Assembly (NCBI RefSeq): GCF_007860105.1
Contig: NZ_SJPU01000001.1
Span: 2,019,015-2,083,014, forward strand
Length of the DNA: 64,000 bases
Direction of reading: 5' to 3'
From: Allorhodopirellula heiligendammensis
GTDB taxonomy: Bacteria; Planctomycetota; Planctomycetia; Pirellulales; Pirellulaceae
The position numbers and the translations under genes were made by a program. Every line of letters starts with the position of its first letter. Position 1 is the first letter of the stretch. Below, one piece after another: positions 40,366-60,100 of this stretch. Below the pieces are notes generated by a model. That model ran no database searches. It saw only the letters and a program-made list of their open reading frames with translations, and had not been told where the DNA came from.

Positions 40366-40662
40366 CTATTGCGGATCTGGAGGTGTATAGACTGGTTTGC
40401 CTTCACTATCTCTGCCGAGGTAGGTGTCCTTAAAAACGATCGATGGATCGTATTCACTGCCCAGCAAGTTTCGGACGGTGTTGAACTCGACGAGGTGATT
40501 ACTGAAATCACGTTGCCGCAGAGACTCGATGAAACTACCCCCAGGCGGGCCTGCGTGAACATCAGCACCACGCTCGAGTAGCAGGATAACGATGCCCCAC
40601 TGAGCGACTGCTTGTTTCTGCCCGAAACAACGAAAGCAGATCGAAGGCAACTCGCCCATCAC
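40366..40662 (-). pseudogene. Ankyrin-repeat gene remnant
   Basis: The minus frame reads VILLLERGADVHAGPPGG, an ankyrin helix-loop signature, then about 55 residues to a stop at VYTPPDPQ. Only one partial repeat remains, and the upstream end runs into the truncated recombinase and its AT-rich repeat. It looks like the surviving 3' piece of an ankyrin protein gene. It does not resemble the intact ankyrin gene at 62.1 kb closely enough to be its copy. Confidence 0.4.
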
Positions 40663-41609
40663 CCAAGTAAGTCAATTCGCAATTTGCAGTGTTTAATTTG
40701 CAATTTGCAATGAACCGTCCGAACCCATTCTTCGACCGGGTTGGGTAAACTCGGCGTTTTGAGTTTGCCGGACGTTCGGTTGTAAACCATCGTTCCGGCA
40801 TACTTCTCGTTACGAAGCCGGGCGAGTACGCCGCCCGCACCCCAACGCCCGTTGCTCGGCGACGGAATCCCGTCGTCGTTCAATCCTTCGGCGATCTTGT
40901 ACTCCGAGAATCCGCGATCGACGAACTCTTCAAAGATCCGCCGAATGACCGCGACCTGTTCCGGCGGGCCTTCGGTCAACGTCACCCGCTTGTTTTGGAT
41001 GCCCTTGTGTTGGCCGGCTTCCAATACATGCAACGGTTCTCGTTTCTCATCGAGCAACAACCGCGATAAACCATACGGAGGTTTTCCGCCGGCGAGATAC
41101 CCTTGTTCGGCGATCTTCACACATCCCCGCCAAACCTTGTCGCTCAATTCACGACTGTATTGGGCGGCCCGGAACCTCTCGAACTGAACGTAGACCGGAT
41201 AGAGCGGATCATTCTCTTTCGGCTTGCCGATCGTCGTATAGATGACCTGTTTGCCGTTCTTTTTGCAGATCGCCGAGAACTGGGCCGACAAGTCGATGTC
41301 TTGAAACCGGCCCCATCGTGACACGTCCAAACACAGCACGTATTCAAAGTCGCCGCGTTTAGAGATCCATTCATCCATCATCTCCGTGAACGCCGGCCGT
41401 CCTTCGGAGTTCAACCCCGATCGTCCCGGGTCACAGAACTCACGGATGATTTCGACGCCGTGTTCCCGCGCCCACGCACGAACCTGATCCTGTTGAAGCG
41501 GGATCGAGTTCTCTTGTCGGTCTTGCGCCGAATGCCGGTAATACGCCACCGCTCGAACGAGCGCCGGTGCATCCGGATCGGGCACACCGATCTCCCACCA
41601 ATTATTCAC
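40659..41609 (-). pseudogene. Large serine recombinase, C-terminally truncated
   Basis: A site-specific recombinase of the kind used by phages and integrative elements. The resolvase domain has the nucleophile in YYRHSAQDRQENSIPLQQDQVR (cited in part: YYRHSAQDRQ), LCLDVSRWGR and a long E-helix; the recombinase domain follows (LAGGKPPYGLSR, VIRRIFEEFVDRGFSEYKIAEGLN, LRNEKYAGTMVYN). It stops at EEWVRT, where intact relatives go on through a zinc ribbon and coiled coil. The last 16 residues (HCKLQIKHCKLRI) are only translation of an AT-rich repeat. At 316 residues it is far below the usual 450-600, so it is probably inactive. Confidence 0.75.
40673..40711. repeat. AATTTGCAA-type repeat at the recombinase break
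   Basis: The stretch is built of CAATTCGCAATTTGCAGTG followed by a variant TTTAATTTGCAATTTGCAATG. Dispersed TTGCAATTTGCAAT repeats of this kind are often found at gene ends and rearrangement points in bacterial genomes. It forms the exact junction between recombinase and ankyrin remnant. Confidence 0.6.
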
Positions 41610-41809: not shown

Positions 41810-42280
41810 TCAGGTCTTCACTTCGTACTGATCCGGCACGTTAAAGATGCGCCAGTACGGATGCACCGCGGTGGTGGGTTGCTTGTCTGGGGATTCGAGC
41901 GGTAGCCCATCGCGGCACCAGCCCAGAATTCCGTCGCGATAGTTCGTCGCGTCAACGCCGGCGGCAACCAGCTTCCGAGCGTACAGATAACTGCGTCCAC
42001 CCACGGTGCAATAAACGGCGACTTGCCGGCCAGCGAACGCCCCCGCTTCAGCTTCGTATTCCTGCTGCGTGATTGCACCCGGAATTCGTGATACGGTTTG
42101 TTCCGCATCGCTGCGAACGTCGACCAGTACCGGTGGCAAGACATCCGACTTTAATGCCGAGTGAAGCTCCGATGTCGAGATCGTTCCAACTTCTGGCCGC
42201 CCAAGAAATCGACGTGTCGCTTCAATGGTTCCGAATCCGCGGTTGCAAAGTCGAATGATCAGATCGCCAAGTGACATCAT
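41810..42280 (-). CDS. Rhodanese-domain protein
   Basis: 156 residues with a single rhodanese domain (about 35-135): VLVDVRSDAEQTVSRIPGA, then the active loop CTVGGRSY, whose Cys can carry persulfide sulfur. An N-terminal helix of about 30 residues (LIIRLCNRGFGTIEATRRFLG) precedes it. The start is ATG 42280 or 42277. Sulfur acceptor unknown. It lies on the same strand as the four-gene operon but 360 bases from its end, so it may be separate. Confidence 0.85.
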   Translation of the reverse strand: MMSLGDLIIRLCNRGFGTIEATRRFLGRPEVGTISTSELHSALKSDVLPPVLVDVRSDAEQTVSRIPGAITQQEYEAEAGAFAGRQVAVYCTVGGRSYLYARKLVAAGVDATNYRDGILGWCRDGLPLESPDKQPTTAVHPYWRIFNVPDQYEVKT

Positions 42281-42640: not shown

Positions 42641-43729
42641 TCACGAATCAATGTATAGGGGCGTGCGCAGAAGGTAGTCCGTGTGTGACATTGGATTCTC
42701 GTTGAAGGAGTGTGAAACGAAGTTCTCATTGCGGAGTAAGCGGATTTCTCGCCGTTGGTTCTCCTCAACACCGAACAGCCCTGGTGGACCTTTGTTCGCC
42801 TTGCCGATAACGCTCCACTCGATGCTTTCACGCTCCGCGATTCTCTCAAATTCCTTCATGCGATCCGCTTTTACTGAGGCGATGACTTGCCAGTCACCCC
42901 AGAACAAAAACAAGTGTCGTGGGTCTAGGCCGTGGTGCAGCGACTCCTTCGTAACGTAATCCGGCATCTGACCGCTCTCCAAGCATACGTCAACGGAAAT
43001 CCCCGAACGCTCCGCGATGTTCCACAATGATCCCAAGACACCATCGGAGTTGTCAGTTGCAGCGCTCAGTACACCAGTGGATTGCAAAATTTCCATCTCG
43101 CGAATTCGAGGCCGCGGCTTTAAAAGTGCTGCAACCTCTTCCGAATCAAGTGATTCAATGCTGCCAAGTCTTTGCGCCTTGAGATAACAGGCAATGAAGT
43201 AGCCGCATTTTCCAATGGCAACAATCGTGTCACCCGCTTTGCATTCGTTTCTTGTGATACGTCGAGAATCACTAATCGAACCGAAAGCCGTTCCATGGCA
43301 AGCAAAACGCGGTGCTACACGTATGTTTCCACCCGCATTCTTTAAACCAAATTCTTTGCATGCTGCATCCATGCCTTCAAAGTAGTCCCGAAAGTCTGCG
43401 ACCGTCATATCGCCTGGTGCTTCGACTGACGTGGTAAACCCGACGGGTGTCGCACCAGCTGCAGCAAGATCACTTGCATTTGCGAGCACGGAGTACCAGC
43501 CCCACGTCCAATAGGAGCAGTGACCGATCGACCATACAAGTGGCTTGGGGCCAACGTCCGTTGTTACCACCAAGTGAGAAGCCGTACGATCTGATTCAAT
43601 AAACGCACAGTCGTCGCCAAGCGAAGCGCCTCCCGATCCAGCTCGCAAAACGGGAAGAATTATTTCGTTGAGAAGGCGAAACTCACCCCAATCAGAGAGA
43701 GTTTCAACGGTTGGTTTCGCGTGATTCAT
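42641..43729 (-). CDS. ThiL/PurM (AIR-synthase)-superfamily protein
   Basis: 362 residues from the ATG at 43729. ThiL-like landmarks: an N-terminal EFRLLNEIILPVL, the metal-binding GDDCAF, then SVLANASDLAAAGATPVGF and, near the middle, DNSDGVLGSLWNIAE, matching the DISDGL motif. Enzymes of this fold use ATP to activate a phosphate or amide (thiamine-phosphate kinase, AIR synthase, HypE, SelD). It differs from true ThiL in having WTWGWYSVLAN and many Cys and Trp residues, and it sits outside any thiamine operon, so its substrate is probably different. It overlaps the kinase gene by 26 bases. Last gene of the four-gene operon. Confidence 0.75.
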   Translation of the reverse strand: MNHAKPTVETLSDWGEFRLLNEIILPVLRAGSGGASLGDDCAFIESDRTASHLVVTTDVGPKPLVWSIGHCSYWTWGWYSVLANASDLAAAGATPVGFTTSVEAPGDMTVADFRDYFEGMDAACKEFGLKNAGGNIRVAPRFACHGTAFGSISDSRRITRNECKAGDTIVAIGKCGYFIACYLKAQRLGSIESLDSEEVAALLKPRPRIREMEILQSTGVLSAATDNSDGVLGSLWNIAERSGISVDVCLESGQMPDYVTKESLHHGLDPRHLFLFWGDWQVIASVKADRMKEFERIAERESIEWSVIGKANKGPPGLFGVEENQRREIRLLRNENFVSHSFNENPMSHTDYLLRTPLYIDS

Positions 43730-45020
43730 ATTTAGGCAGTATCCGTTCAGAAATATATTTGGCAAGTTGCAGAACGTGTTGACGTGTTGAAACTTGTGAA
43801 GAAAAATCATTGCTGTGCTTAAGCAATCCCATCGCAACCAAAAACAGGGGAATTACATATTCCCAATCCCACTCCGTCTCCGTGGGAAATGCCTTTCGAG
43901 CATGTTTGCGGATGAACGATACGAGCTGCACGCGCCCTTGCAACTCAGGCGATTCGAAATGCGGCGAGTCATCCTCAAACGAGATCCATTGCGCCAGCCT
44001 GACGACGTCCTGGTAAGAAGTTGCCGCTGGTAGAGTTACAAATCGAACATTGCACTCAAAGAGAACAAAATCTTTCGCAATGTGAGCGTCACCATCTGCC
44101 CACCCAAAATCAATGATCCGGGGGATCCCTCGGGAGAGAACTATGTTTTTGGGATGAAGATCACCGTGTATCCCACCGCAATACATTCTCGCTTTGCAAT
44201 CTTGGATTCGCTTCAGGACATTGAACGGATTTGTCCATTCCTGTCCAAAATCTATCGATAGTTCATCGTTGTCAGCGCCCCAGCAGTCACGCCATCGAGC
44301 TGCCCATATTGAAGTGTGGATTTTGCGAAGGTACCGCTCGTACTCAACCGAAAACTGCCTCACTTCGACCTGTGACTTGCCTCCTTTGCGGTGCAGTGGC
44401 CAAAGGGACTCGAACGCCAACTGCAGTGCATCGCATACTTGGTCAGTGGCCAATTCCGTTGAGGTAAGCAGCTTCCAAATATCCGCCACACGAAGATTTA
44501 GACGACCTCCGTGCAATTCAACATCGCCCCAGATGTCGTCGGCGGAAGCAAAGGGAGACCAGAGAACAGAATAGGGCCGTTCGGAGTCAGACGGGGACCA
44601 GCGGAGTGGTGCCGCATATCCAGTCGGCGAATGACCAATGAGAAACTTTAGTGCCTCGGCGTCTTGAAACTCTCTTTCGCAGGAATCCTGATCTGAGCCC
44701 GGCTTTGGCTTTGCAAGTTTGACGATAAATGGATGTGAAGGCCAAAGACTTGCCTCGGCAACGAAGTATGCGACAAAAACGGAGGCGCTACTTTTTCCTT
44801 CCGCAGCACCAAGACGATTGAGTGGTACGACGCGAAGCGAGCACTCCTTCACTTCCACACTGTTCCCATGAAGTGACGGCCAAATCTTGCAGCGGAGGTC
44901 TTCGCCCTGAGCGTCGTTCGATACAAGTGTGCTAAGTAGTTCAAATGCAGAATCTAGGAGGCTCTTTTCGCTGCCAGGATCAAACAAGTCAATTTCTAGT
45001 CCTCGCATTACGTCGGTCAC
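43704..45020 (-). CDS. APH-like kinase (aminoglycoside phosphotransferase fold)
   Basis: 438 residues. The C-terminal half is a eukaryotic-kinase-like APH/choline-kinase domain: catalytic loop HGDLHPKNIVL (about residue 288) and metal-binding IIDFGWADGD just after; an N-lobe lysine is visible in PFIVKLAKPK (about residue 105). The first 80 residues (MRGLEIDLFDPGSEKSLLDS ...) are an extra domain I do not recognise. The substrate is unknown; being embedded between a dCTP-deaminase-like and a ThiL-like gene suggests a nucleoside or small metabolite, not an antibiotic. It overlaps both neighbours (4 and 26 bases). Confidence 0.78.
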   Translation of the reverse strand: MTDVMRGLEIDLFDPGSEKSLLDSAFELLSTLVSNDAQGEDLRCKIWPSLHGNSVEVKECSLRVVPLNRLGAAEGKSSASVFVAYFVAEASLWPSHPFIVKLAKPKPGSDQDSCEREFQDAEALKFLIGHSPTGYAAPLRWSPSDSERPYSVLWSPFASADDIWGDVELHGGRLNLRVADIWKLLTSTELATDQVCDALQLAFESLWPLHRKGGKSQVEVRQFSVEYERYLRKIHTSIWAARWRDCWGADNDELSIDFGQEWTNPFNVLKRIQDCKARMYCGGIHGDLHPKNIVLSRGIPRIIDFGWADGDAHIAKDFVLFECNVRFVTLPAATSYQDVVRLAQWISFEDDSPHFESPELQGRVQLVSFIRKHARKAFPTETEWDWEYVIPLFLVAMGLLKHSNDFSSQVSTRQHVLQLAKYISERILPKYESRETNR

Positions 45021-45622
45021 TTTGATTTGGGAGCGTACGGAAACTTAACTTTGCTGATGTGCTGCATTTCTTCAAACATCGAAGGGCCCGATGGAACTGG
45101 TTGATGCTCATAAATACTTCGCATCAACGCAATCTCTCGATTTTGTGGACTAACTGGTGCAAGCATCAGATGGCAAACAGGCATTCCATGGTGTAAAATG
45201 ACAGGCGAGGGGTTGTGCGAAACTATCTCAAACGTCAATTCACTCGGAACACCTTGTCCATACCCAGGTGAAATGAGTTGAGAGTCGCATGTCACGGAAA
45301 TGCCGGCCCGCGACATATGCGAAGTAGTCGACAGGAATCCCGCCAGGCCGTTCGGCAGCCACAAGCTTTCATACGAGCTAACCAATAGTAAGTCGCCTTG
45401 CTTCACACAGATTTCGGAGACCGTCTCGACTGAACCCAGCGAGTTTGCCGCGCAATCCTCGGTCATCAAGTCAATTGGCGTGTCCTGCCGTCGCCACCTC
45501 CGAACTCTATTTCCCAATCGCAATACATAGCTAGCCGATTTTAAAAGTGCGGGCTCAAAAGGCTCTATCCCGAATAGCTCTTGTGATCTTTGATCAGAAA
45601 TCTGGTCAGCACTAAAGAACAT
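45017..45622 (-). CDS. dCTP deaminase/dUTPase-superfamily protein
   Basis: 201 residues from the ATG at 45622; an upstream in-frame ATG at 45643 adds seven. The fold is recognisable from LKSASYVLRLG, QGDLLLVSSYESLWLP, the core FLSTTSHMSRAGISVTC, SPGYGQGVPSELTFEIVSHN and ILHHGMPVCHLML. Ser and Arg of S-x3-R (SHMSR) and the Glu of LTFEI align with the dCTP-deaminase catalytic Ser111, Arg115 and Glu138 of E. coli, so activity is plausible. It is longer and more divergent than housekeeping Dcd. It overlaps the HIT gene by 11 bases and the kinase by four. Confidence 0.8.
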   Translation of the reverse strand: MFFSADQISDQRSQELFGIEPFEPALLKSASYVLRLGNRVRRWRRQDTPIDLMTEDCAANSLGSVETVSEICVKQGDLLLVSSYESLWLPNGLAGFLSTTSHMSRAGISVTCDSQLISPGYGQGVPSELTFEIVSHNPSPVILHHGMPVCHLMLAPVSPQNREIALMRSIYEHQPVPSGPSMFEEMQHISKVKFPYAPKSK

Positions 45623-46277
45623 TGCTTGGCCTCCTGGCTGCAACTGTTTGCAACAAGTCTTGCTCAGGTGCTTTGTACTCGCGCCAATCCCAAGGCCTAT
45701 TTAGGGAAAAGTGACGGACAAGAAGTTTTCGCATGTGCTGTGAACCAAACCCGTGTTCACGAATTGCATTCTGGTCAATTGACGCGACAGTGCCGAGCGT
45801 ATCGCGAGCGACAATGTATTCTTCGCTTACACGATTGATGTTCCAGGCGTCTAGCAATGACGGGTGCCGCAGCCGCTCACTGGGGAGCATGTCTTCCATT
45901 TTGAAGTGCGTGGGAACGGGTACGATGTGTAGGTGGGCATGATAAATTCCGCAACCTCCGCCGGAAACACATCGTGCGCCATGTTCAAAGAGCACGTATC
46001 TCGACTGGACGCTAGCAAATGCCGCCTGGAGGAACGCGCTGAGCTGCTCAACTTCGTCCGCATTCAGATCTGCGAGACGCTCGGCATGTCGCCTTGGCAA
46101 AATCAGAAGACTACCTGCAAACAGCTGACCGATTGTTGGCAATGCGACAAACGCGTCGTTCTCCAGCACGACTCTAGTTTGCAAGTCGTTTCTGTACAGA
46201 TTAGCAAAGCGTGAGCTGAGAACACCTGCGAGCTCATCGCAAAACTCGCAATAGGTTAGGTCGTTCAGATGAACCAT
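45612..46277 (-). CDS. HIT-family (histidine triad) protein
   Basis: 221 residues. The HIT core spans about 30-140: LLILPRRHAERLADLNADE and the triad YHAHLHIVPVP, where the central His is the nucleotidyl-transfer or hydrolysis nucleophile. CEFCD near the N-terminus is the zinc-type pair found in many HIT/GalT relatives. An unusual extension of about 80 residues follows the triad (NRPWDWREYKAPEQ), which typical short HIT hydrolases lack. First gene of the four-gene operon; it is divergent from the transposase gene 329 bases away. Confidence 0.82.
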   Translation of the reverse strand: MVHLNDLTYCEFCDELAGVLSSRFANLYRNDLQTRVVLENDAFVALPTIGQLFAGSLLILPRRHAERLADLNADEVEQLSAFLQAAFASVQSRYVLFEHGARCVSGGGCGIYHAHLHIVPVPTHFKMEDMLPSERLRHPSLLDAWNINRVSEEYIVARDTLGTVASIDQNAIREHGFGSQHMRKLLVRHFSLNRPWDWREYKAPEQDLLQTVAARRPSNVL

Positions 46278-46606
46278 GTCGCTGTTGCCTTGAAGCGGCT
46301 ATTGGATTGGATTGAAAGAAACAGATTTTATCAACGCAACTCTTTTTCAACTAGCTGAGAGCCATCCATGGAGAGATGAGTCCAATGCGATGGTCGAGCG
46401 AGAGACTCACTCAATAGATTTGCTGCATCCCCACTGCATTCGCATTGATTTGACGCACCGCGCCAATGAAGGTTTCGGCATTCTCGCCCATGACGCCGGA
46501 AGGTTGAATAGGGACAGGCAAGAAATAGTTGCCTTCGATCGCGGATTGCATATCATTGCCGATGGTTTCGCAGCTCAAGACCGTGACGCTGACGGAGGTG
46601 ATGAAG
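46278..46606. other. Divergent region between HIT gene and transposase
   Basis: 329 bases. The HIT-operon promoter should lie near 46280-46350. The rest is the transposase leader, with GGAGG at 46594-46598. The left boundary of the transposase element was not found. Confidence 0.4.
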
Positions 46607-47683
46607 ATGCCCAGGCAAGCTCGTGGGGAAGTGATCGATCCCAGTGAGGTTCAGATCCTCCACTGTATCGAGAGGTGCGTCCGCAAGGCGTGGCTCTGCG
46701 GAACCGATCCCGCTACTGGAGAGTGTTTCGAGCACCGCAGGGGCTGGATTCGCGACCGAATGGAGTTCCTCGCCTCCGTGTTCGCGATCGATTGCTTGAC
46801 TTTTTCGATCATGAGCAATCACCTGCACCTGGTTCTAAGAAGTCGCCCGGACGTTGTCGCGGCGTGGTCGGACGATGAGGTCGCCCAGCGTTGGCTGCGG
46901 CTGTTCCCCGCGCGTCGTAACCCTGACGGCAGCCCTGCCGTGCCGACGAGACCGGAGCTGAACATGATCCTGAATCAGCCGGAGGTTCTGGCCTCACGGC
47001 GTCAGCGATTGTCTGACGTGAGTTGGTACATGCGCTGTCTCGCTGAGAATATTGCCCGCCGCAGTAACGCCGAGGACGAGGCTCGCGGCCACTTTTGGGA
47101 AGGGCGTTTTCGGGCACAGGTGCTCCTCGATGAAGCGAGTTTGTTGGCGTGTGCGGCCTACGTGGATCTCAACCCGATTCGTGCCGCCTTGGCGGAAACG
47201 CCTGAATCGAGCAAGTACACTGGAGCCAAGGATCGGATTGACGACTTGACTCATAGCTCCGATCGGACCCGCCTAAGCACCCATGACTGGGAGCGAAGCC
47301 GCGGTCGCCAGCACAGTGGCTGGATGAGTCCAATTGAAATTGACGAGCAGCACGATCCCGTCGGACCGCACCTGGATCATTCGGGCAGACGAGGCAGCCT
47401 GAAAGGTTTCCTAAGTGTCTCGTTGGCGAGCTATCTGGAATTGCTCGACTGGACGGGCCGTCAACTCCGCAGTGACAAGGTCAGTGCGATCCCCTCGCAC
47501 TTGCAGCCGATCCTCACACGTATGGGCTTAGATACCCATGCCTGGTGTGACGTCGTGAGCCGATTTGGGCGGGTGTTCAAGCGAGCAGCGGGTAGCCCAG
47601 AACACCTCGCCGAGGAAGCCAGCCGTCGCGGTCAAGGTTGGCTCTGCGCCCGTGACAACCCACTCGGGATATCTTCGGCCTGA
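46607..47683 (+). mobile_element. Y1-type (REP-associated) transposase gene
   Basis: 358 residues. The start at 46607 (MPRQARGEVIDPSE) is set by GGAGG eight bases upstream. The HUH motif is in IMSNHLHLVLRSRPD and is followed by GHFWEGRFRAQVLLDE and YVDLNPIRAALAETPE, the typical pattern of single-strand, tyrosine-using transposases related to the IS200/REP group and common in planctomycetes. The C-terminal part is variable. It appears intact. Inverted or REP-like ends were not identified. Confidence 0.88.
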
Positions 47684-48124: not shown

Positions 48125-51100
48125 TCAGAGACGCCCCGCAGATGTCATCGTCATTCCATCGGGTCCGGAGACAAGTTCAAAGGTCAGCGGGTCGTTGTCG
48201 ACGTCGATCGCACGAGCCTGGTAGTCAAGTGGGACGCCGACGCGAGATTGACCGGCAGGTGGGCTGAGCAGGTACCGCGGTGCAATTTCAGTCAGCAGGT
48301 TGGGTGACGAGTTCTCGCCGTTGCTATTGATGATGCTGACGACGTACGATTGCGAACCGATCGCGCCGTGAGGATCTGTTGAGATGAGTGTGACGAAGTA
48401 GTCGCCCGCGTCGCTAGGGACCCAATCGAGTTCACCGGTCTGGCGATCCACTTGAAAGTCGGTGGACGGCCAGAGTCGACGGTCGCTGCCGAAGCTACTC
48501 ACCAAAGGTATGATACTGCCCCGATAGTCCAATGCCTCGGTTTCACCCTCATTAGGATCATTGGCGTGACTGTCGTAGGCGTAATCGATGCCGACGGCTC
48601 CACCACGAACAGGTGTGGATACGAACCGCGGTGGCGCATTGGCAAGTACTGTGTAGGTCACCTCCTTGGTGAGCACACCACCGGACATATCATCTGCGCT
48701 GACCGCGATAGTCACGTTACCTGGGGCCCTGGGTGTCCAAGTGATCACGCCGGTGTTCGGGTTGATCTGTGGCCCATCTGCTGGATCACCGCTAACCTCG
48801 AGCGACCATTCAATGGAATCCCGCTCGGGATCTTCCACGCTCGCAGTAACTTGCATAGGGTGGTCGCGGTAGAGAATTGGTGCCGGTACAACCATTCTCG
48901 CGGGAGGTCGATTATCAGACGCCAGGGCAGGATCATACGCCATCACTGATACCGTAGCAGTGACTGCTTGTCCTGCTGGGTCGTAGGCCGTAATGGGAAG
49001 AATTGATTCACCAACGATGGGCGGCGTGAATACGATCACGCTCTCTAGGATCGTATCTGCATTGAGATCACGCTGAACAATTTGGGCGCCAGAGGTGAGC
49101 GCTGTGGGATGGAGTTCAACCGTTACGGCGTCGCCGAGTGGATCATGCGCGATGATTGGGATTTCCGCTTCTGTTCTGATCGGTACGCGAACCCACGGCG
49201 CGACATCAAGGGTCGGGAATGCATCAAGGGTGGGGGCGAGCGTAAATGTTTGGGAAGCTCCGCTGCCGCGACCATCCTCAACGGCCACCGTGACGTCGAT
49301 CGCCCCAGTGCCAGCTGGCGTCCAGGACAGCAGTCCTGTGGTCGAGTCAATCGACACTCCGGATGATATGGATGCCGGATCTACTGAGAAGAGTAGAGTG
49401 TCACCATCCGGATCCGTGGCGACTACCTGGTAGACTACCGGCACGTCGACCGCAGCCGTCCTCGGAGGTGTGCTGGTGATGGTCGGGGCTTGGTTGGCAA
49501 ACGTAAACTCTGGGGAGAACGTCTGGCGAGCAAAGCCGCTTTTGCCATCGGATACCTGTACCGTGATCGTTCCCACCTGGGCAGTGTGAGGTTCAGGCAG
49601 CCAGCGAATTAGACCAGTGATGGGATCAATCGTGATGCCATCGGGGCCATCGAGCAATTGGTAAGTAAGTCGATCTCCATCAGGATCCGTCGCATCCACG
49701 TCGTACAGGAACGGCTCAAAGTATCGTGCGGCGAGACCAGGGGTTGTGTTGATGAGAGGGGCGGTGTTCAGACGCGGCCGGGTGTCGACTAGGAAGTCCA
49801 ACTGAGTGACCGCCTCCGCAGAGGAGACAGTGCCTTGATAAACCAGCGAAGTTGGAGAGATCGTCGCCCACTGATCCCCCCGTACAAAACCAACGCGATA
49901 GTCGCCTGCGGGCGAGTCGATGTGATAGATTCCCGCAACATCTGTAGTAGTCGATGCCTCGCCGACATCAAACCGCAAATTGCTGTTGGAATCGAGGTAG
50001 ACAATGGTGTTTTCCAATGGGGTATCCGTCCCACTGTCGAATATCGCGTTTCCGTTGACATCGTGATAGACGCGACCGCCGAGCTTCGCCGGTGCAGCGT
50101 CAATTCCGGCAAGCGTGAATACTTGAAGCGTCGTGTGTCCACGACCATCGCTCACTTGCAGGACGAAATCGTAGGTGGATTCGGCGCCACCAGGCACGTC
50201 GAACGACAGCACGCCTGTGGTGCTCATGGCCGCACCTGCGGGACCATGCCGAAGCGAGATCGTTAGCAGGTCACCATCCGGATCCAAGGCGGATGCTTGG
50301 TAGTGATAGCTCGTGCCGGTTATGGCTGATGGTGTGGGCAGAGACGTGAATACGGGGGCGTGATTGCCTGCGACAGGCCCTAGTCGTAGCGTATACCGCT
50401 GTTTCGCATCGCCGCCACGACCGTCGTCGGCGGTAACAATGACTGCATAATCACCTGCGTCGACTCCATCGGGCAACCAGTTGATTTTGCCCGTGTTGGG
50501 GTTGATCGTAATATCGGCATCACTACCAACGACCCCGGCAAGTTGAATAGTCAAGGGATCGTCAATGCTAACGACCGACAAGGAATATTCGAGCACGTCA
50601 CCATCGGCATCGCGAGCGAACGAGTCATAGGTATAGCGTTGTTCGGCGTCGGACTCGGTCGCAGGTAGGGAGGTAAAAACGGGCGGACGGTTGATCGACC
50701 CATCAATGATTGAGATTACGAACGACTGAACGGATTCGGCTCCATGAGAATCACTTAGGCGGAGCGATACCGGATAATTCGATAAGTCAGCTGGGACGTT
50801 GTCCCACTGCAAATATCCACTACCATTGCCGATATCGACGAAGGTCATGCCTGCGGGGCCGCTCAAGATTTCGAGCGTCACCGCGTCGCTGTCCGGATCA
50901 TAGCTGCTCACCCCAGCTGAGTACGTCTCACCAATTCCGCCTCGGGCCGAAATCACGGGGGTTGATGTAAACACGGGTGCTTCGTTCATTGCTCCAAGCA
51001 AAACCAGTTCATAGTCGAACGGTTGCCTCTCAGGTACGTGAAACGTGATGGATTCGAGGGTGGTGCTGCCACCGGGAAGTAGCTGATCTGTGTCGACGAG

Positions 51101-54100
51101 GGGTGACAGGTCGTAGTATGGCGTGCCATCGGTCCATATCCCGTCGAAATCAATTAATTCCACGCTCGGATCGGAGACATTGCGGACGCCAATCCACAGA
51201 GGATTCGAAACGGGGGTGTTGCCGCGATTGACAATACTCAGTTCCGCATAAAGCTGGTTGAGCCGTTGGTTGAATGAGGTCGTCGCGTACTGCTCAAGAA
51301 TCGCCGAAACATCGATCATGGATTCGAGGGCGGAGTTGGCACGATGCGGAAGTAAACCTTCGAGGCGATGAGTGGTGGTCGCCGAGGCACCGAGACTGTT
51401 GATTACCTCAAAGTCGTAATGCGATTTACCAAAGGGGAGTTCAATCGAAGTGAAGAAATTGCCTGCCGCATCCACCGTTTCAATGCGCTGGCCATCGATG
51501 CTCAGCGAGACAATCGTCGCGTCCTCACTTCCACTACTTGCTCGCCCGCTGATCAGCACGGTCTGCCCAGTCGGGATCGCAGCCCCATCGCTCGGCGACA
51601 TGACTTCAATGGTAGGCGTCGCGCCGAACCACTCGACCGTTGCTGTGTCGATAACGCCCATAGCGGTCGCAGTAATACTATCAATACCAGCAAACTGACC
51701 ATCGACCAGGATTGTTGCTCGACCAAAGGCATCGGTGCGGAGGGAGCCCACCTCAGCGTTGGAACCGGCAATGGTATAGTCGACACGAACGCCCGGGAGC
51801 GGGATTCCTTGTTGGCCCGAAAGTGTGGCGACGACATGGTGCTGGTTTCCGATGGGCAGCCGCAAGATACTCGGATCGAGATTGATTTCAGGAGCGGCGT
51901 CGATGGGAACGAATGACTGACCACCCACGTAGCCATAGGATTCATCATAGCTGTACCCATACGCCGTTACGCCGAATGGAAGTGGGCCGGTGACGCTGTG
52001 GCCCGCCTCATCGACGCTGAGGTTCGCGACGGAATACTCTGTTCCCGCGACAGAAACGAAGTGAGTCGGGTCGACGAATAACCCATTGATCTTGATCTCA
52101 CTGATGACCGAGCTTGGAACGGTCAATCCTAAATAACTATCATTATTTCTCGGGAATTCGGACGAGACCATGTATGACGACAAAAACTGCTCGGTCGGTG
52201 GCACGAGCATCATAAACGGATCACCCACCTGGTCATTCTGCGAACCGGTCGCGAACTGAGTCAGCTGAATCGGTTGGTTGGAGATGACGGATGTTGATGC
52301 GGCCAGCGTCGCTTCGTGCACATCTCCGGCACTTAATGAGACCTGCGTCTCGCCAATCCAAACCTCTGTCGAATCGTAGACGGCGACGGCTCGGATGACA
52401 TCAGGGCCTTTGCTCGCGAGTTTGTTTAAAACAAACTGCTTGCCGAGTGTTTCCAGCGGTGGGAGCTGTTCGATTAGCGTGTCGCACGTCGTCAATCCGA
52501 TGGGCACATTGGCGCAAGTGTGGCCAGAGAGGACGGCTACTTTTTCAGAGGCGTGGATGAGCGTGCCGGTGAAGTCAGCGAGCGCGCGACTGTCCTTTAG
52601 CGAGTAGACCTCGCCGCGATCAAGATGCAGCATCGCTCGAGTGCCATCGGGCGAAGTGATTTCGACACTGGTTTGATCGACTGTGCCAATGACCTGAAAT
52701 TGTGTGCCGAGATTTCCCCCCAGCCGTGGATCGGTGGGATAGGACGTCAAAATATAGTTCTGTCCGATGGTATCAGTGGGCAACGCCATGAATCCATCGG
52801 TCGAAGCGAACTGAGCGGCCAGCCCATACACCGCAATTTCGTGGTCTGCAGTTATTCGTATGGCACTTGGCAAGATGGTTCCCTCACCTGTGACACCGGT
52901 TGTCCCGCTGCCAATCGGTTCAAGCGATGCCGGCAGATAAAACTGCTGTGTCTCACCTGCCGCGAGTTCAAAATTAATGTCCACCTCTGACCAAGGGGCA
53001 GAAATATTCCCAGCCGTATCGAACTCGCTTACCAAGACAACTAAGAATCCATCGCGATCACCGTCTTCATTCGCCGGAGGTTCCTGGTAGGCATTTGCGT
53101 TTGGAGGAATGGCAAGAAAGAATTCTCTTCCAAGGTTATCGGGGATTCCAGAATAGTCGTCGTCCACGATGGTGATCGTGGCGGTTTGATTGAGAAGAGT
53201 CCCTGCTACTGGTGATGAAAGCGAAACGAAGAAATCTCGCGTGGGGTTGGCGTCTCTATTTCCCGGTGTGGGAATCTCGATCACCCCTTCGCGCTGGCCG
53301 GCGGCGATGACGAGCGTTCCACTGGTGTGCTGGTAGTCAACGCCGGCAATCGCCAGCCCATCGCTAGTCGCGTAGTCCATTGATACGGGATACCGGGCTG
53401 GGGCATCGAGTGTCACCGGGACAGCGATAACTCGGCTGGGATCGTTGCCCTCAATGGTTCGAATGTCATTGACGACGATCCCAGGACCAGAGTGGCGCAA
53501 GACAACTTCGTTACCGGTTCCGCCAGCGTAGGTGAGTCTGAACACTTCACCATCGAGAATCCAAGGCTTCCATTCATCCTTAGCTGCGAAGGTTCCTATC
53601 ACAGGATCGACCGTATTCTGACCTTGGCCCTCGTCGCGATGATCGTCTTCGTTAACCCATAGTGTGAACTGGTCTCCGATCTGGGTCTGCCCGACACGTT
53701 GGATCTCAAGATCACCATCAAGATGGAGCGATCCTGTGACTTGGATCTGTTCGTGGACTGGCCCCAACGCTGCATCCATGACCCTGAGGATTGTTGTCCC
53801 CCTGGAGGACTGGATGAAGTTTCCGTCAACCTGGAGAGTTCTGGAAGCATCGCTTATTGAAAAATGGGCGTGATTTTCAATGCTGCCTGCGATTCGACCG
53901 CTGACGATAGCCTGTCCCCCATCGATCAGTAGTGTATTGTAATTGTTTTCGTAGTAGCTCGATGCCAGTTGCAACGTGGCGTTATCGAGCGTGAAAAGGC
54001 CGTCGCTCATAATGATGGGTTCGTCGGAACCGAGTGCGAGTGTCTTGGTTGGTGCAACGTAAACGTTCCCGCTGGTCTGAAAGGGAAGGTCGATAGAGAA

Positions 54101-57100
54101 CAGATTTGTGCCGTCATGGTTGATCAAGCCCTCGTTGATGAAACTCGCTGTGGAGTTCGGAACACCGAAGTCATCGACGGCGGAAACGACCGCCCCGTCG
54201 CCGGTTACATTGAGAGTCCCCAAATTGAGTATTTGAGATGCTCCGTCGACGATGATTCTGCCATGAACCCATTGAGTCGTTCCCTCGAGAAGCAGCCGAT
54301 GGTCGATCAATTCGGGACTGCCCGTCCACGGCGTCGCCCCAACCCGCATCGTGCCGACAACTCGTGTTGTTGCATCGCCCGTGAGCCTAGGAGTGCCGCT
54401 GATTTCGAATTCGTTCTGAATCGTCAGCCCAGAATCATTGTCCAATGTGCCACTCGATAGAGTGACATCGTCAATCGAAACTGGTGCGGAGACGTCAACG
54501 CGAACGCTGCCACCGCTGATTTGTAACGAGTGTGCTTGCAGAGTTCCGTCGAAACTCACCCCACCGCTGCTGACGAGGACTGCGCCGACATTCACATCGC
54601 TTGATATCTCGCTTACACCTTGGGCGATCTCCAGCGTCCCGTCTCCAGTAACAGCGGCGGTTGGCAAAAGTTTCAGCTGGGGACTGTCCAGGTCCACGGT
54701 CCCATAGCTGTCCGCATCCGCCTGAGGCGCCAGTTGCAGGGTGTGATTATTCTCGATAAAGAACTTACCCGAAGACACGCCTATGCCACGGAGTTGCAGT
54801 GTTCCCGATTCCACACTCACCAGGCCATTTGAATTCATGCTGCCATCGTTACGAAAGGGAACGTCGATGACAGTAAGTTGGGTTCCCTGCGTTTTCTTGA
54901 TAGTTCCTTCGTTGTGAAACAGACTGCTGGAGCTCGCCGCGTTGATCGTGTAGTTAGCATCAAACGCATCGATGACGTCTGCGTCAGAACGGATGTCAAT
55001 TGTCCCGCCAGAGCGATTGTGCCAGGTGCCTGGTTGGTATTCGTATTCGTATTGATCGGACAACAGCAAGCGACCAATGGTGACGTTTCCAGAATCTTGC
55101 AGAATGAGCTCACCATCGTTGATCAGGGTCGTTGCTACTGATTTATTTGCTGTCCCATGAATCCATCCAGCTTGAGCTACGGTCAATGACCCGGGACCGA
55201 CGATCACACCTCCCGACCAATCGAAATTCGCCTCCACTTGCACTTCGCCGTTGCTGTGCAGAATTCCTCCAAACATCGAAAGACTTGCTATCTTTGCGAC
55301 ACCGCCAAGACTGATCGTGCCGTTGGTCGTCAGCGAGGCAATCTCGACGGTACCAGTAACGGAGAGCTGACCCCCAGTGTCGACAGTGATGGGCTCTTCG
55401 GAATACAGACTCGCGGCATTGGTACCCGACGACGAACCGCTGTCGATCCGCACGGGAGCGTGACCAGGAACATCGATGAGGACGCTATCGGTACCTGTCG
55501 GGACTCGGTGGACCGCTGCTAAATCCGTGGTTGTCCAGTTGCCGGGTTCGTCCCAATGATCATCTACTGCACCTGTCCAGATGATTGTCGGGTTAAACTC
55601 TGCGGGAGGTGGATCGGCGATGCCATACGGATTTCGGTTATTTGCATCGAGGGAGAATGTCGCAGCATTGGCATGACTGCCATGTCGAAACGACGTGCCA
55701 TATGGGAAGTAGTAGACTGCGTCGGTTTTTTTGTCGACCATCCACAGTTCAGTTCCACCTTGCGGATTCGTGGTGATTCCTTGCAAATCGTGATTGCCAC
55801 GACCGACATCCACTCTCCAGTCGCCTAGATACTCGCCAGCGAGCGTGTACACGAATACTCGGGGAGCGTGATTTTTATCGTTGAGGACGAATAGGCGAGT
55901 GCCATCGGTCGCGATACCAGATGAGTCTCGGTTGCTGGGGTGCAGATCGAATTGGCTGGTAGCTCTAATGTCTCCAGCACGATGCGCCGCACCTTCGGCA
56001 AAGTAGAGGACTTTGTCTTTGGCTCGATCAACCGCCCAAAGATGGCGACCGTCGGTAGCAATGCCTTCGGCAGCGTTTAAGTTCTTGGCATTCTTCTTCG
56101 TGCCGTTGGCTCTGGCCTGCCATCGACCGATTTCGTTGCCGTCGGGTGTGTAAACAACAATCTCGTGGCCTGCGGTGATGGTCCACAGGGTATCGCCTGC
56201 TGCATCGGCGGTGATGCCACGCGCGCGGTCGTTGTTGGCATAGTCCCAGTTCTCAATGAAGTCGCCGTTGTCACCGTACTTGAAGATTTCATGGCGACTA
56301 TGGTCGACGACGTAAAACTTTGCGAACTCCTGCACCGATGCGACGTTGATCGTGATCGTCGCCGGCGCCGAGGTGGTGGCCCCGTCGGTAATTGTGTACT
56401 CCCACGTGACCTTGCCATCAAATCCGGGGCTCGGAAGAAAATGAAACGAACCATCCGGACTGGTGCGAAGGATTCCAGCGGATGCGGGAAATGCATCTGT
56501 GACAGTGCTGATTCGAATTTCGTCAGCGTCCGAGTCCCAGTCGTTTGCGGTCAGGCCCTCGGAACTTCCGACGTGTAACGCGACACCTGCGTCAGTGACG
56601 TAGCCATCATTGATCGCCACGGGAGCATCGTTGACACTGTGAACCGTCAGGTAGACGGTCGCGACGGCTGAGTGAACGTGTCCGTCGAAGACACGATAGG
56701 TGAACTGGTCGCTGCCGTGGTAGTTCTCAGCAGGCGTGTAGGTGAACGCGTTGTCCTCAAGGAGTGCGGTGTTTCCGTGAGCGGGATGCGTCATCAGGAC
56801 CGGGGTGAGAGCGTCACCGTCGCCGTCGAAATCGTTATGGAGAAGGCTCGTGATATCGAGTTGCGTGTCTTCGTCGGTTTCAAAGATATCATCATTCGCT
56901 ACCGGGGCTTCGTTATAATCGTGTACATTGACGTTGACGGTGTTGGAGCGGTAGCCTCCGCCAGCGACGTACGTTCCACCATCCATGACACCAGAGGGAG
57001 TGAATTCGCTGTCGCGACTGAGCGCAATCGTATCCACTGCCGTTCCGTCTTCTCGCATCCACATGTTGAGAGCATGAATGCCGGGCGAGTCAAACGTGAT

Positions 57101-60100
57101 TGTCACGCGGTCGTCTCCGGAGCGATTGTTGACCGCGTTTACCCACGTCCAATCTCCTGAATTGTCAGTCATGCCCAAGTTGCCGAAGGTGACTGGCGTG
57201 CCATCAACCCCCAGGTGAACTGAGTCGTCACTATCCGACACACCTTTCAACCGCACCCATACGTAGAACGTTCCTGGTTGGTCGATCTTGATGGAATAGT
57301 CGCGGCGCGGACCCTCGGTACTGTCTCCTGTATTCAGCGAAGAATTTGGTGCGGCGAGGAGGTACTGGCCTGATGACGCTTGTTGGTCATACCGTACCGC
57401 CCAGTCATGGTTGGCTGCAGTCCCGCTCCCACCGCTTGCGTGTTGGAAATTCTCTGCTTCAACGAGGACCTGCCCTGCTGCTTCATGGAAGAGTCCATCG
57501 TGCGGGGCATCCTCGTCGAAGGCTGTGGCATGAATGAAATAAGACCCGGGCTCTGCGAAACGGTGGGCGACCAAATTTGGATTGCCGCCAATCCATTGAT
57601 CCGGCGTGCCATCACCCCAGTTGATTTGCCATGCATAGATCGTATCTTCGCCGGGATCGATCTCGTGGAGGTCGAGGTCGAATACATCGCCCTGCCGGAC
57701 CGTGAGGGGAGCGGTAATTGTCAGGAGCGGATCGACATTTTTGACCGTCACTGAAGTGCGAGTCGAGTAGATGCCCGATGTGGTCTCCGCCCAGAAAAAC
57801 ACGTCGCGAGCGACATCGCCGTCGTCGTACACATGGCTCGCGGACATTGATCCATTGGAGATCATTTCATTCGCGCTGTCTCCCCAATCGACGAACCACT
57901 GCGTCACCACCTCGGTTGAATGAAGCTGCACAGAGACTGGCGAACCTTCGTCAACCGCGACGGGCATGGCATAATTAACGGGAGGGTCAACATCAGTGCA
58001 GAACTGCAGATCCGTTACCGCTCCGCTGCCAGCGAAGACGACCTCCATCCTGGAGACATTTTTTGTATCAAGAGCGAGTCGTTGGAATCCATTGTCACCG
58101 ACATTGGACGCTTCAACGCGGGCGAGCAGATTATTCTGATTGTCAAAGAGCCGCACTTCGTTTCGACCGTTGTCTACGTCGAGTAAACCGATGGATGTGA
58201 TCGCGGCGGGGTCATCGAAGTGGAAGAGTAACTTTCCGCCTCTGGCGTTGTCGTCAGGGTCCCCCGAGTCACCGTCTTCGCTGATGATCAGAACCATGCC
58301 GAGTGCCGCATCATTCGCGCCAGGAGCGCCTGCCCGTCCGCCACTGCCAATTCCTGGGCCACCGAAGTCTCGGTTGGCCGTCCCTAGATCAGGGTCGCCA
58401 CCGGTAGGTTGGGCGGAATCGAATAGCATGGGTGGATTGGATGCTTGCGAGCTTTCGATCGTGATGCCCCACTCTGCCCACACGTTTCTGGCAATCATTC
58501 CAGCAACATTGTCGGAACCGTCGGAAGCGCTGTCAAAGTTTAGAGCTGGATAGCAAACTGACTCGTGAACGCTCGGGTTGATCGTGACTACGACCGTCCC
58601 CACCTCGGTTTGGCCCAGGACATCAGTAGCCCGATAGGTGAAAGTATCGACGCCTGAGTACCTATCGCCGGGCGTGTAGGTAAACCTCCCATTTCCTTCA
58701 TCAATCACCACACCGTACGTCGCGTCATTCCCTATCGTGTGCACTGTCGAAGCGGAAAAGGTATCGTTGGCAGTGACGTCGCCACTGACAGGAGTTTGGT
58801 AGTCAGTAACAAATACATCGTCCAACACGTCTTTGGCAGATGCGATCAATACCGAGACCGTGACAATGTCCGAGCTGTGCAATCCGTCATGGGCTCGATA
58901 CGTAAAGCTATCGCTGCCATGATAGTCGCCATCGGGCATGTAGGTGAACGAACCGTCGCTAGCAAACTCAAGCGATCCATGTGCAGGCTGAGTTTCGATG
59001 ACTGCGGTCAGATGATCTCCATCGATGTCGGCGTCATTTGTTAGAACGCCAGGAGCATCTACAACCAGTTGCACGTCCTCCGTACCGTGGTAGGTGTTCG
59101 GGCTACCAATGGGTGGCAAATTTGCGCGATCGACGGTAATGTGGACTGTCGCCGCATTGGCGCTACTGAAGACTCCGTTGGATGCGTGATAGTTGAAAAA
59201 GTCATCGCCAAAAAATCCTGGATCAGGGGCATAGACGAATTCGCCATTGGAATCGACTGACACGCTGCCATGGGAAGGCTCGGTGACCGACCCCGGGGCT
59301 ACGGTGATCGCACGCCCCTCCTCATCGAAATCGTTGGAGATCAGTGCCGGGGCGTTTCCAACGAGAACCCTATCTTGGACGGTCGTGTAGTAATCATCCG
59401 ATGCGGTAGGAATGGGGTGATCGCATGTGATTCGGAACCAAGAGCCGCTATCGCCATCGTTATTCACCAGGCGTAAAACAAGCGACAGTTCTTGACCGAC
59501 ATTCAGCTGGGAAATATCGAGATCCACATATCCGCTGAGGTAGTCATCGGGATCGTTTCGATAGTGGTACGTTGTATCGCCTTCAATCGCTCCCATGCTT
59601 TCGGTGATATTGAAGTAGCTGTCACGGTTCAGTTCGATAGTTGGTACCACGCTGTAACCATCTTGATCGAGCAGAGCGACCTCAAACGCATCGTTGATAC
59701 GATCATTGGCGGTTTCATCAAATAATGCCTCGAAGCCAAACATCAGCCACGATGGATCGTCGGGAACCGTGATTGAACGGGTAATTGAAACTAAGAGCGA
59801 ATCCCCCTCGCTTACCAAAACTTCAGGCCCATCGGCCACCACTGTTCCGCGACCCGTATCCGTTCCGCCAAACTGTGAGGCCGTCCAGCCGTCTAGCGGA
59901 TCGCCACCAGCGCAAGACATCGAGATTGAGCCGGCATAGCCGGGGCCGCCAGGATCGATAATGACTCCGTTTGCGATGCCATCGTCGTCGCCTCGACCAC
60001 CGTCCTGGATGTAGAGCGTGAATCCAGATTGTGTTTGGATCGCACCCGTCGTTCCGTCGAAATAAAACTCACTCAGTCTGCCAGTGATCGGATCTTCCTT

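Follow-up and report, generated by a model that had tools for sequence, protein, structure and literature searches.

A conserved four-gene cassette of planctomycetes that may represent an undescribed nucleotide-based system of defence or modification

What task could unite a HIT-domain protein, a dCTP-deaminase-like (DCD-like) protein, a kinase and a ThiL-like enzyme in a single operon? This question is raised by a stretch of 64,000 nucleotides from the genome of Allorhodopirellula heiligendammensis (here called the window), in which four overlapping genes for these proteins lie in this order on the minus strand (positions 42641-46277). An earlier reading, made from the sequence alone, had proposed that they form either a nucleotide-targeting defence cassette or a pathway that makes and clears a modified nucleotide. 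As shown below, the four genes form one conserved unit under strong constraint, and this cassette may constitute a system, so far undescribed, for nucleotide-based defence or modification. With moderate confidence it is interpreted here as a patchily distributed four-gene operon that acts on a (deoxy)nucleotide and serves in genetic conflict, i.e., in the defence against phages or mobile elements, as a variant form of nucleotide-centred systems with HMUDK_hel and MazG_C.

Conservation of the four-gene unit

The overlaps amount to 11 bases between the HIT and the DCD-like gene, 4 bases between the DCD-like and the kinase gene and 26 bases between the kinase and the ThiL-like gene, just as the sequence-only reading had stated. 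Alternative in-frame TTG starts exist upstream of the DCD-like gene (45643) and of the ThiL-like gene (43837); the starts chosen are those giving the best line-up with relatives. A kinase search of 392 genomes of the phylum yielded six matches, two of which, besides the window genome (G000), were strong (G307 and G339; all three cassette genomes belong to planctomycetes). In both, the four genes recur in identical order and the first two overlaps likewise measure 11 and 4 bases, whereas the last overlap, counted from ATG starts, comprises 8 bases instead of 26. As the gene order and two of the overlaps recur in two other genomes, the unit is not a product of chance. Compared with the window proteins, those of G307 and G339 are 46-50% (HIT), 50% (DCD-like), 52-54% (kinase) and 61-63% (ThiL-like) identical. 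The key residues that had been named for the four folds are indeed present (HxHxH; S-x3-R and Glu; HGDLHPKN/IDFG; GDD/DNSDG), and according to the alignments they are invariant across the three cassettes. Thus, the four families co-occur in conserved order in three genomes and the catalytic residues are kept in relatives, both of which the earlier reading had set as checks of its idea. The ratios of non-synonymous to synonymous substitution rates (dN/dS) are given for the pair G307 and G339, synonymous sites being saturated in comparisons with the window copy; they are 0.10 for the DCD-like protein, 0.12 for the kinase, 0.13 for the ThiL-like enzyme and 0.14 for the HIT protein. All four proteins are therefore under selection.

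Profile searches returned only a handful of genomes. The ThiL-like profile matched three of 397 genomes of the class (E ≤ 1e-30) and the kinase profile five of the 397 (E ≤ 1e-6), namely the three cassette genomes and two others (G742 and G541). For the DCD-like profile, three of 392 phylum genomes scored 390-396 bits. Three weaker matches (G065, G118 and G134; 51-56 bits) were rejected as links to the cassette, as their contigs contain no other cassette gene; the matches in G065 and G134 read by eye as normal dcd genes.

The kinase and its relatives

The third protein had been described as APH-like. Its kinase motifs are present, but it is of the TCAD9 type rather than a plain APH: it belongs to TCAD9 (PF19974, Ternary complex associated domain 9), which it matches in its C-terminal half with 63.8 bits (2.3e-17; cut-off 40), while APH itself is matched with an E-value of only 0.0059. 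Five members of the kinase clade were found, and the two outside the cassettes, those of G742 and G541, score 265 and 246 bits, respectively, when the cassette profile is used. They are 32-35% identical to the cassette kinases and have K101, HGDLHPxN and IDFGW in common with them, the motif of the sister kinases being HGDLHPGN. Both are encoded between an HMUDK_hel gene (5-hydroxymethyldeoxyuridine (5-hmdU)-kinase-like; 3e-115 in G742, 2.6e-107 in G541) and a MazG_C gene (1.6e-74 and 5.4e-72, respectively). At the locus of G742 there is also a gene whose product shares 45% identity with an annotated thymidylate synthase of a plasmid, together with an ACP-like segment and an ImmA/IrrE-type peptidase. 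Farther off, 7.6 kb from the kinase and separated from it by other genes, is a JetD gene. In G541, genes for ThsB_TIR and Nmad2 adjoin MazG_C. The surroundings of this locus (L052, 1-19501) are plasmid-like and rich in defence genes, with a TIR-nSTAND protein, a Tle1-like phospholipase and a WD40 protein nearby, and they further contain a replication initiator, a ParA-type ATPase gene and a weak nucleoside-deoxyribosyltransferase match.

Operons with HMUDK and MazG genes were also found on plasmids of three cyanobacteria and one rhizobium (four of 36 matching records were read). As these plasmid versions contain no clade kinase, it is not a strict hallmark of HMUDK_hel/MazG_C systems. The version on a Gloeothece plasmid is accompanied by a CBASS phospholipase, TIR and Nmad2, others by a gene annotated as thymidylate synthase together with ImmA/IrrE. 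On the Sinorhizobium fredii plasmid (L065, 602-3086), the operon of thymidylate synthase, nucleotide kinase and MazG is adjoined by a second annotated thymidylate synthase and by a DCD-domain protein whose C-terminus is greatly extended; ABC-three-component genes follow at some distance. The sharing of this kinase by the cassette and HMUDK/MazG_C loci points to an exchangeable component of such systems. The location of its nearest relatives in loci with nucleotide-modification and TIR genes lends independent support to the earlier proposal of a role in defence or nucleotide modification.

More distant TCAD9 proteins exceed the family cut-off in 12 other genomes of the phylum. Among the proteins scanned from five of them, isochorismatase fusions were seen at L057 (8190-10502), L054, L055 (under the isochorismatase cut-off) and L061, that of L057 with a C-terminal DSP-type phosphatase domain.

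Neither the window kinase nor the G541 kinase found a match on plasmids by tblastn. Likewise, scans of genome contigs with the kinase and of viral sequences with the kinase and the ThiL-like protein revealed no relative, yet as these scans of limited reach are based on a few short peptide patterns, this absence means little.

The other three enzymes and the genomic setting

The HIT protein of the window matches PF01230 with 32.9 bits (1.1e-7; cut-off 21.5), whereas that of G307, taken alone, stays just below this cut-off (19.8 bits). H113, H115 and H117 are invariant in the three copies, which places them among HIT-triad proteins, and a profile search matches HIT proteins of the PDB. The window copy exhibits a weak PADLOC match to ThsC of Thoeris (9.2e-5); the HIT proteins of G307 and G339 have no PADLOC match.

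The DCD-like protein matches PF22769 (4.8e-21), but its score for the dCTP deaminase equivalog TIGR02274 is 78.4 bits and thereby below the cut-off of 92.8. S101, R105 and E132, which we take to have the roles of the corresponding residues in dCTP deaminase, align with normal Dcd and are invariant in the cassettes. However, an alignment with seven normal dCTP deaminases (HVTAGF in five, HISAGF in G065) shows another sequence in place of the HVTAGF stretch, which is presumably part of the base-binding pocket, and four inserted residues ahead of the strand which bears the Glu. The housekeeping dCTP deaminase of the window genome (L006, C2:1223788) itself reads NPGGSLGQAGY where five relatives read HVTAGFGDVGF. 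With the DCD-like alignment, 31 viral loci were found (27-30% identity over part of the protein), and a PHROGs search returned only dCTP deaminase and two families without function on the HIT side. Plasmid matches of the DCD-like and ThiL-like proteins by tblastn were only 24-33% identical.

A similar picture emerges for the ThiL-like protein, which matches AIRS (4.8e-17) and TIGR01379 (3.4e-47) but remains under the cut-off of the latter (161 bits in the window, 157 in G307 and 150 in G339; cut-off 184.15). GDD, SDLAA and DNSDG are kept, the GGED motif is altered, and a conserved extra tail (RNENFV-x2-SFNENP-x-SH-x-DYLL) is present that the window genome's own ThiL lacks. As both proteins are altered in this way, the DCD-like one by the replaced stretch and the insertion and the ThiL-like one by its GGED motif and tail, their substrates are likely to differ from dCTP and thiamine phosphate.

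The coordinates of the cassette genes and of their neighbors are listed in Table 1. In the window, the mobile setting claimed by the sequence-only reading is borne out in part: the serine recombinase looks truncated, as its match ends at position 78 of the 102 positions of the Recombinase domain, whereas the Y1 transposase is weak and below both cut-offs. Direct or inverted repeats of at least 18 bases were not found between 39600 and 48100. Beyond the transposase-like gene follows an open reading frame of 4530 amino acids with repeated cadherin-like stretches, recognized by eye (48125-61717). No rhodanese gene was seen by eye beside the G307 or G339 copies. A scan for promoters and terminators detected sites no more commonly than in shuffled sequences (5 vs. 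3.4 and 5 vs. 4.9).

Table 1. Features of the cassette and its flanks in the window
Feature	Position	Strand	Length (aa)	Matches and characteristics
HIT-domain protein (first gene of the operon)	45612..46277	-	221	PF01230; H-A-H-L-H triad
dCTP-deaminase-like (DCD) protein	45017..45622	-	201	PF22769; S101-x3-R105, E132; 4-residue insertion, one stretch altered
APH/TCAD9-like kinase	43704..45020	-	438	TCAD9 PF19974; K101, HGDLHPKN, IDFGW
ThiL-like AIRS-fold enzyme	42641..43729	-	362	AIRS, TIGR01379; GDD, DNSDG, extra C-terminal tail
Small rhodanese-domain gene	41810-42280	-		~360 bases downstream of the cassette
Serine recombinase, apparently truncated (flank, outside the cassette)	40659..41609	-		Resolvase 1.1e-16; Recombinase positions 1-78 of 102
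Weak REP-associated tyrosine-transposase-like gene (flank)	46529..47683	+		NF047646 36.9 bits (cut-off 80); Y1_Tnp 15.8 bits (cut-off 23)

The neighbors differ at all three sites (open reading frames read by eye, few of them scanned with Pfam). Those in G307 include an aspartyl-hydroxylase gene (Pfam) and, as read by eye, a gene like those for aldehyde dehydrogenase. In G339, Phage_integrase is matched weakly (16.9 bits; cut-off 27.1) 0.6 kb from the cassette, and a reverse transcriptase gene (L015, 14489-18491; RVT_1 4e-12, PADLOC RT 1.5e-23), which adjoins a weak MerR-like gene and a gene for 507 amino acids that Pfam does not match, is located about 2 kb away. Regarding a location in defence or mobile islands, the sister locus of G541 is rich in defence genes and G339 offers the recombinase match and the reverse transcriptase, whereas no defence neighbor was recognized by eye in G000 and G307, and a defence island is not evident for these two. 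No thiamine gene was recognized by eye beside the three copies, and separate thiL and dcd genes lie elsewhere in each genome; on the other hand, a hypoxanthine-phosphoribosyltransferase-like gene (by eye) lies in G307 on the opposite strand, 1.7 kb from the cassette (L014, 14008-14637). No such gene was noticed beside the other two copies.

In all three genomes the G + C content of the cassette is below that of its surroundings. For the window, the values are 50.8% compared with 55.2% in the remainder, which agrees with the A/T-richness noted earlier and ranks among the lowest 1.3% of equal-sized windows. A recent transfer revealed by conflicting trees was considered and rejected: the cassette proteins of G307 and G339 are 69-83% identical, much as are a sufB-like protein (72%) and the housekeeping dcd (75%), G000 being far removed in both cases. 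As there is thus no phylogenetic conflict, only the patchy distribution, the G + C content and the differing neighbors speak for mobility. The cassette probably moves between genomes, although perhaps not recently.

Weighing the readings against known systems

If the cassette is an operon acting on a nucleotide in genetic conflict, its product probably arises by the conversion of a pyrimidine nucleotide, with the HIT protein as eraser. While the conserved unit, its key residues and the genes that accompany the kinase are observed, we infer the role in defence and the order of steps. The DCD-like enzyme would deaminate, or perhaps hydrolyze, not plain dCTP but another pyrimidine nucleotide; the ThiL-like and the APH-like enzyme would then use ATP to phosphorylate the product of this step or its nucleoside; and the HIT protein would cleave the nucleotidyl product, thereby serving as eraser or off-switch. 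The product itself could act as a signal or an antimetabolite, or serve as a modified precursor of DNA. More speculative, and in this specific form rather unlikely, is the idea of an undescribed immune pathway in which a new modified or hyperphosphorylated pyrimidine nucleotide, functioning as antiviral antimetabolite or second messenger, would be formed by a DCD-like reaction and by two kinases that use ATP but differ in fold, and be removed by a dedicated HIT eraser, i.e., a pathway built wholly from metabolic enzymes without TIR, cyclase or nuclease. Defence by nucleotide chemistry is under active study, yet little is known about the enzymes that write and erase the nucleotides concerned. 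The present unit of four enzymes, compact and with intact key residues, has its kinase in common with HMUDK/MazG_C loci and offers a directly testable route to a new nucleotide product.

Several observations weigh against a role in genetic conflict, among them the lack of tree conflict described above. Neither a sensor nor an effector was recognized among the four enzymes. By eye, no further defence gene was recognized in the 64-kb window (three neighbors Pfam-scanned) or within 7-9 kb of the cassette in G307 (two neighbors Pfam-scanned). PADLOC models matched the kinase only weakly (E-value 0.006 or worse) and the DCD-like and ThiL-like proteins not at all. The link to conflict systems is drawn from one of the four proteins at 32-35% identity, and MazG_C (PF18722) is found in none of the three cassette genomes (G000, G307 and G339), although both sister genomes are positive. 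HMUDK_hel (PF18723) was searched among the operon proteins, none of which matches. The thymidylate-synthase-like genes of G742 and the plasmids have no Pfam match. Of the five scanned TCAD9 proteins, four match isochorismatase (three over its cut-off) and show no evident role in defence, and the fifth matches TPR-S. AlphaFold models from single sequences were too poor to be used (mean pLDDT, i.e., predicted local distance difference test, of 36 and 39).

A small-molecule pathway without any defence role, in which a modified nucleoside or a similar compound is made or salvaged and which has spread by chance gain and loss, would agree with all four proteins being enzymes and with the lack of a recognized sensor or effector. 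It fits with two of the three loci having no recognized defence neighbors, with the divergence of the ThiL-like and DCD-like proteins from the housekeeping forms at conserved motifs, and with the metabolic genes near the G307 cassette. Yet no common biosynthetic, transport or resistance gene was recognized beside the three copies (mostly by eye), and the nearest relatives of the kinase reside in HMUDK/MazG_C loci, one of them with TIR. Such a pathway is considered rather unlikely, though it deserves to be kept in mind.

Deaminases of dCTP are known to act in anti-phage defence, and since the DCD family membership and the Ser, Arg and Glu are retained, the DCD-like enzyme could simply drain dCTP upon infection under the regulation of the other three proteins. 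This simple drain, a mode mentioned in the sequence-only reading, is not borne out: one stretch differs from all seven normal dCTP deaminases and is accompanied by the insertion (even though the normal copy of the window genome also lacks HVTAGF), PADLOC does not recognize the protein, and three further enzymes would be left unexplained. Depletion of deoxynucleotides is thus doubtful.

Still less probable is a DNA-modification module with which a mobile element attacks or protects itself, and which would supply the precursor of a modified base in the manner of phages with hypermodified thymine. The relatives of the kinase and the plasmid versions beside thymidylate-synthase-like, HMUDK_hel, Nmad2 and MazG genes would agree with such a module. 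However, apart from the reverse transcriptase of G339, no polymerase, DNA-modifying or phage gene was recognized beside the cassette, and among 50,697 phage records only two matched the ThiL-like protein, with 31% identity; the viral scans of limited reach mentioned above gave no relatives for the kinase or the ThiL-like gene. An ordinary housekeeping role in thiamine or dUTP metabolism, for which only the family names speak, is rejected as hardly credible, because separate thiL (228, 239 and 240 bits, all over the cut-off) and dcd genes are present in all three genomes, the window copies score below the equivalog cut-offs and the cassette occurs in three of 397 genomes.

Within the open-access literature, nothing was found that joins the four family names together or with defence. 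Individually, each protein resembles known ones. The DCD-like protein shares with dCTP deaminase/Dcd-Dut (TIGR02274; PDB 2qxx, 1xs1) the profile, Ser-x3-Arg and Glu but differs by the replaced stretch, the insertion and the lower score. With ThiL (TIGR01379; PDB 3c9r) the ThiL-like enzyme has the AIRS domains, GDD and DxSDG in common, and it differs by the altered GGED, the extra tail and 161 instead of 184 bits, with a true thiL elsewhere in the genome. ThsC of type II Thoeris is likewise a HIT protein in a nucleotide-based defence context; according to the PADLOC paper, 2.4% of Thoeris systems include a HIT gene, whose product is suggested to work as an off-switch (PMC8565338). Unlike Thoeris, the cassette contains no TIR gene, and the weak match is confined to the window copy. 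The C-terminal half of the kinase is TCAD9-like; however, it stands alone in an operon of enzymes, whereas the other scanned proteins are fused to isochorismatase (one also to a phosphatase) or to a TPR sensor domain. For ternary conflict systems, in a paper whose main text does not use the name TCAD, it was suggested that active APH-type kinases might phosphorylate small molecules (PMC7159879).

The comparison that bears most directly on the cassette is that with the HMUDK_hel and MazG_C operons. In the DefensePredictor study, 5-hydroxymethyluracil kinase, which is assumed here to be the HMUDK_hel family, and thymidylate synthase are named among the domains of systems validated against phage, while MazG, MazG-C, dUTPase and a nucleotide-modification domain were predicted to be defensive and left untested there (PMC13092281). 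The cassette has HIT, DCD-like and ThiL-like proteins in place of the hallmark genes, and its genomes lack MazG_C; what it shares with these operons is a make-up of nucleotide-acting enzymes and a kinase of the same clade, which in G742 and G541 is encoded between the two hallmark genes and in G541 within a plasmid-like setting rich in defence genes.

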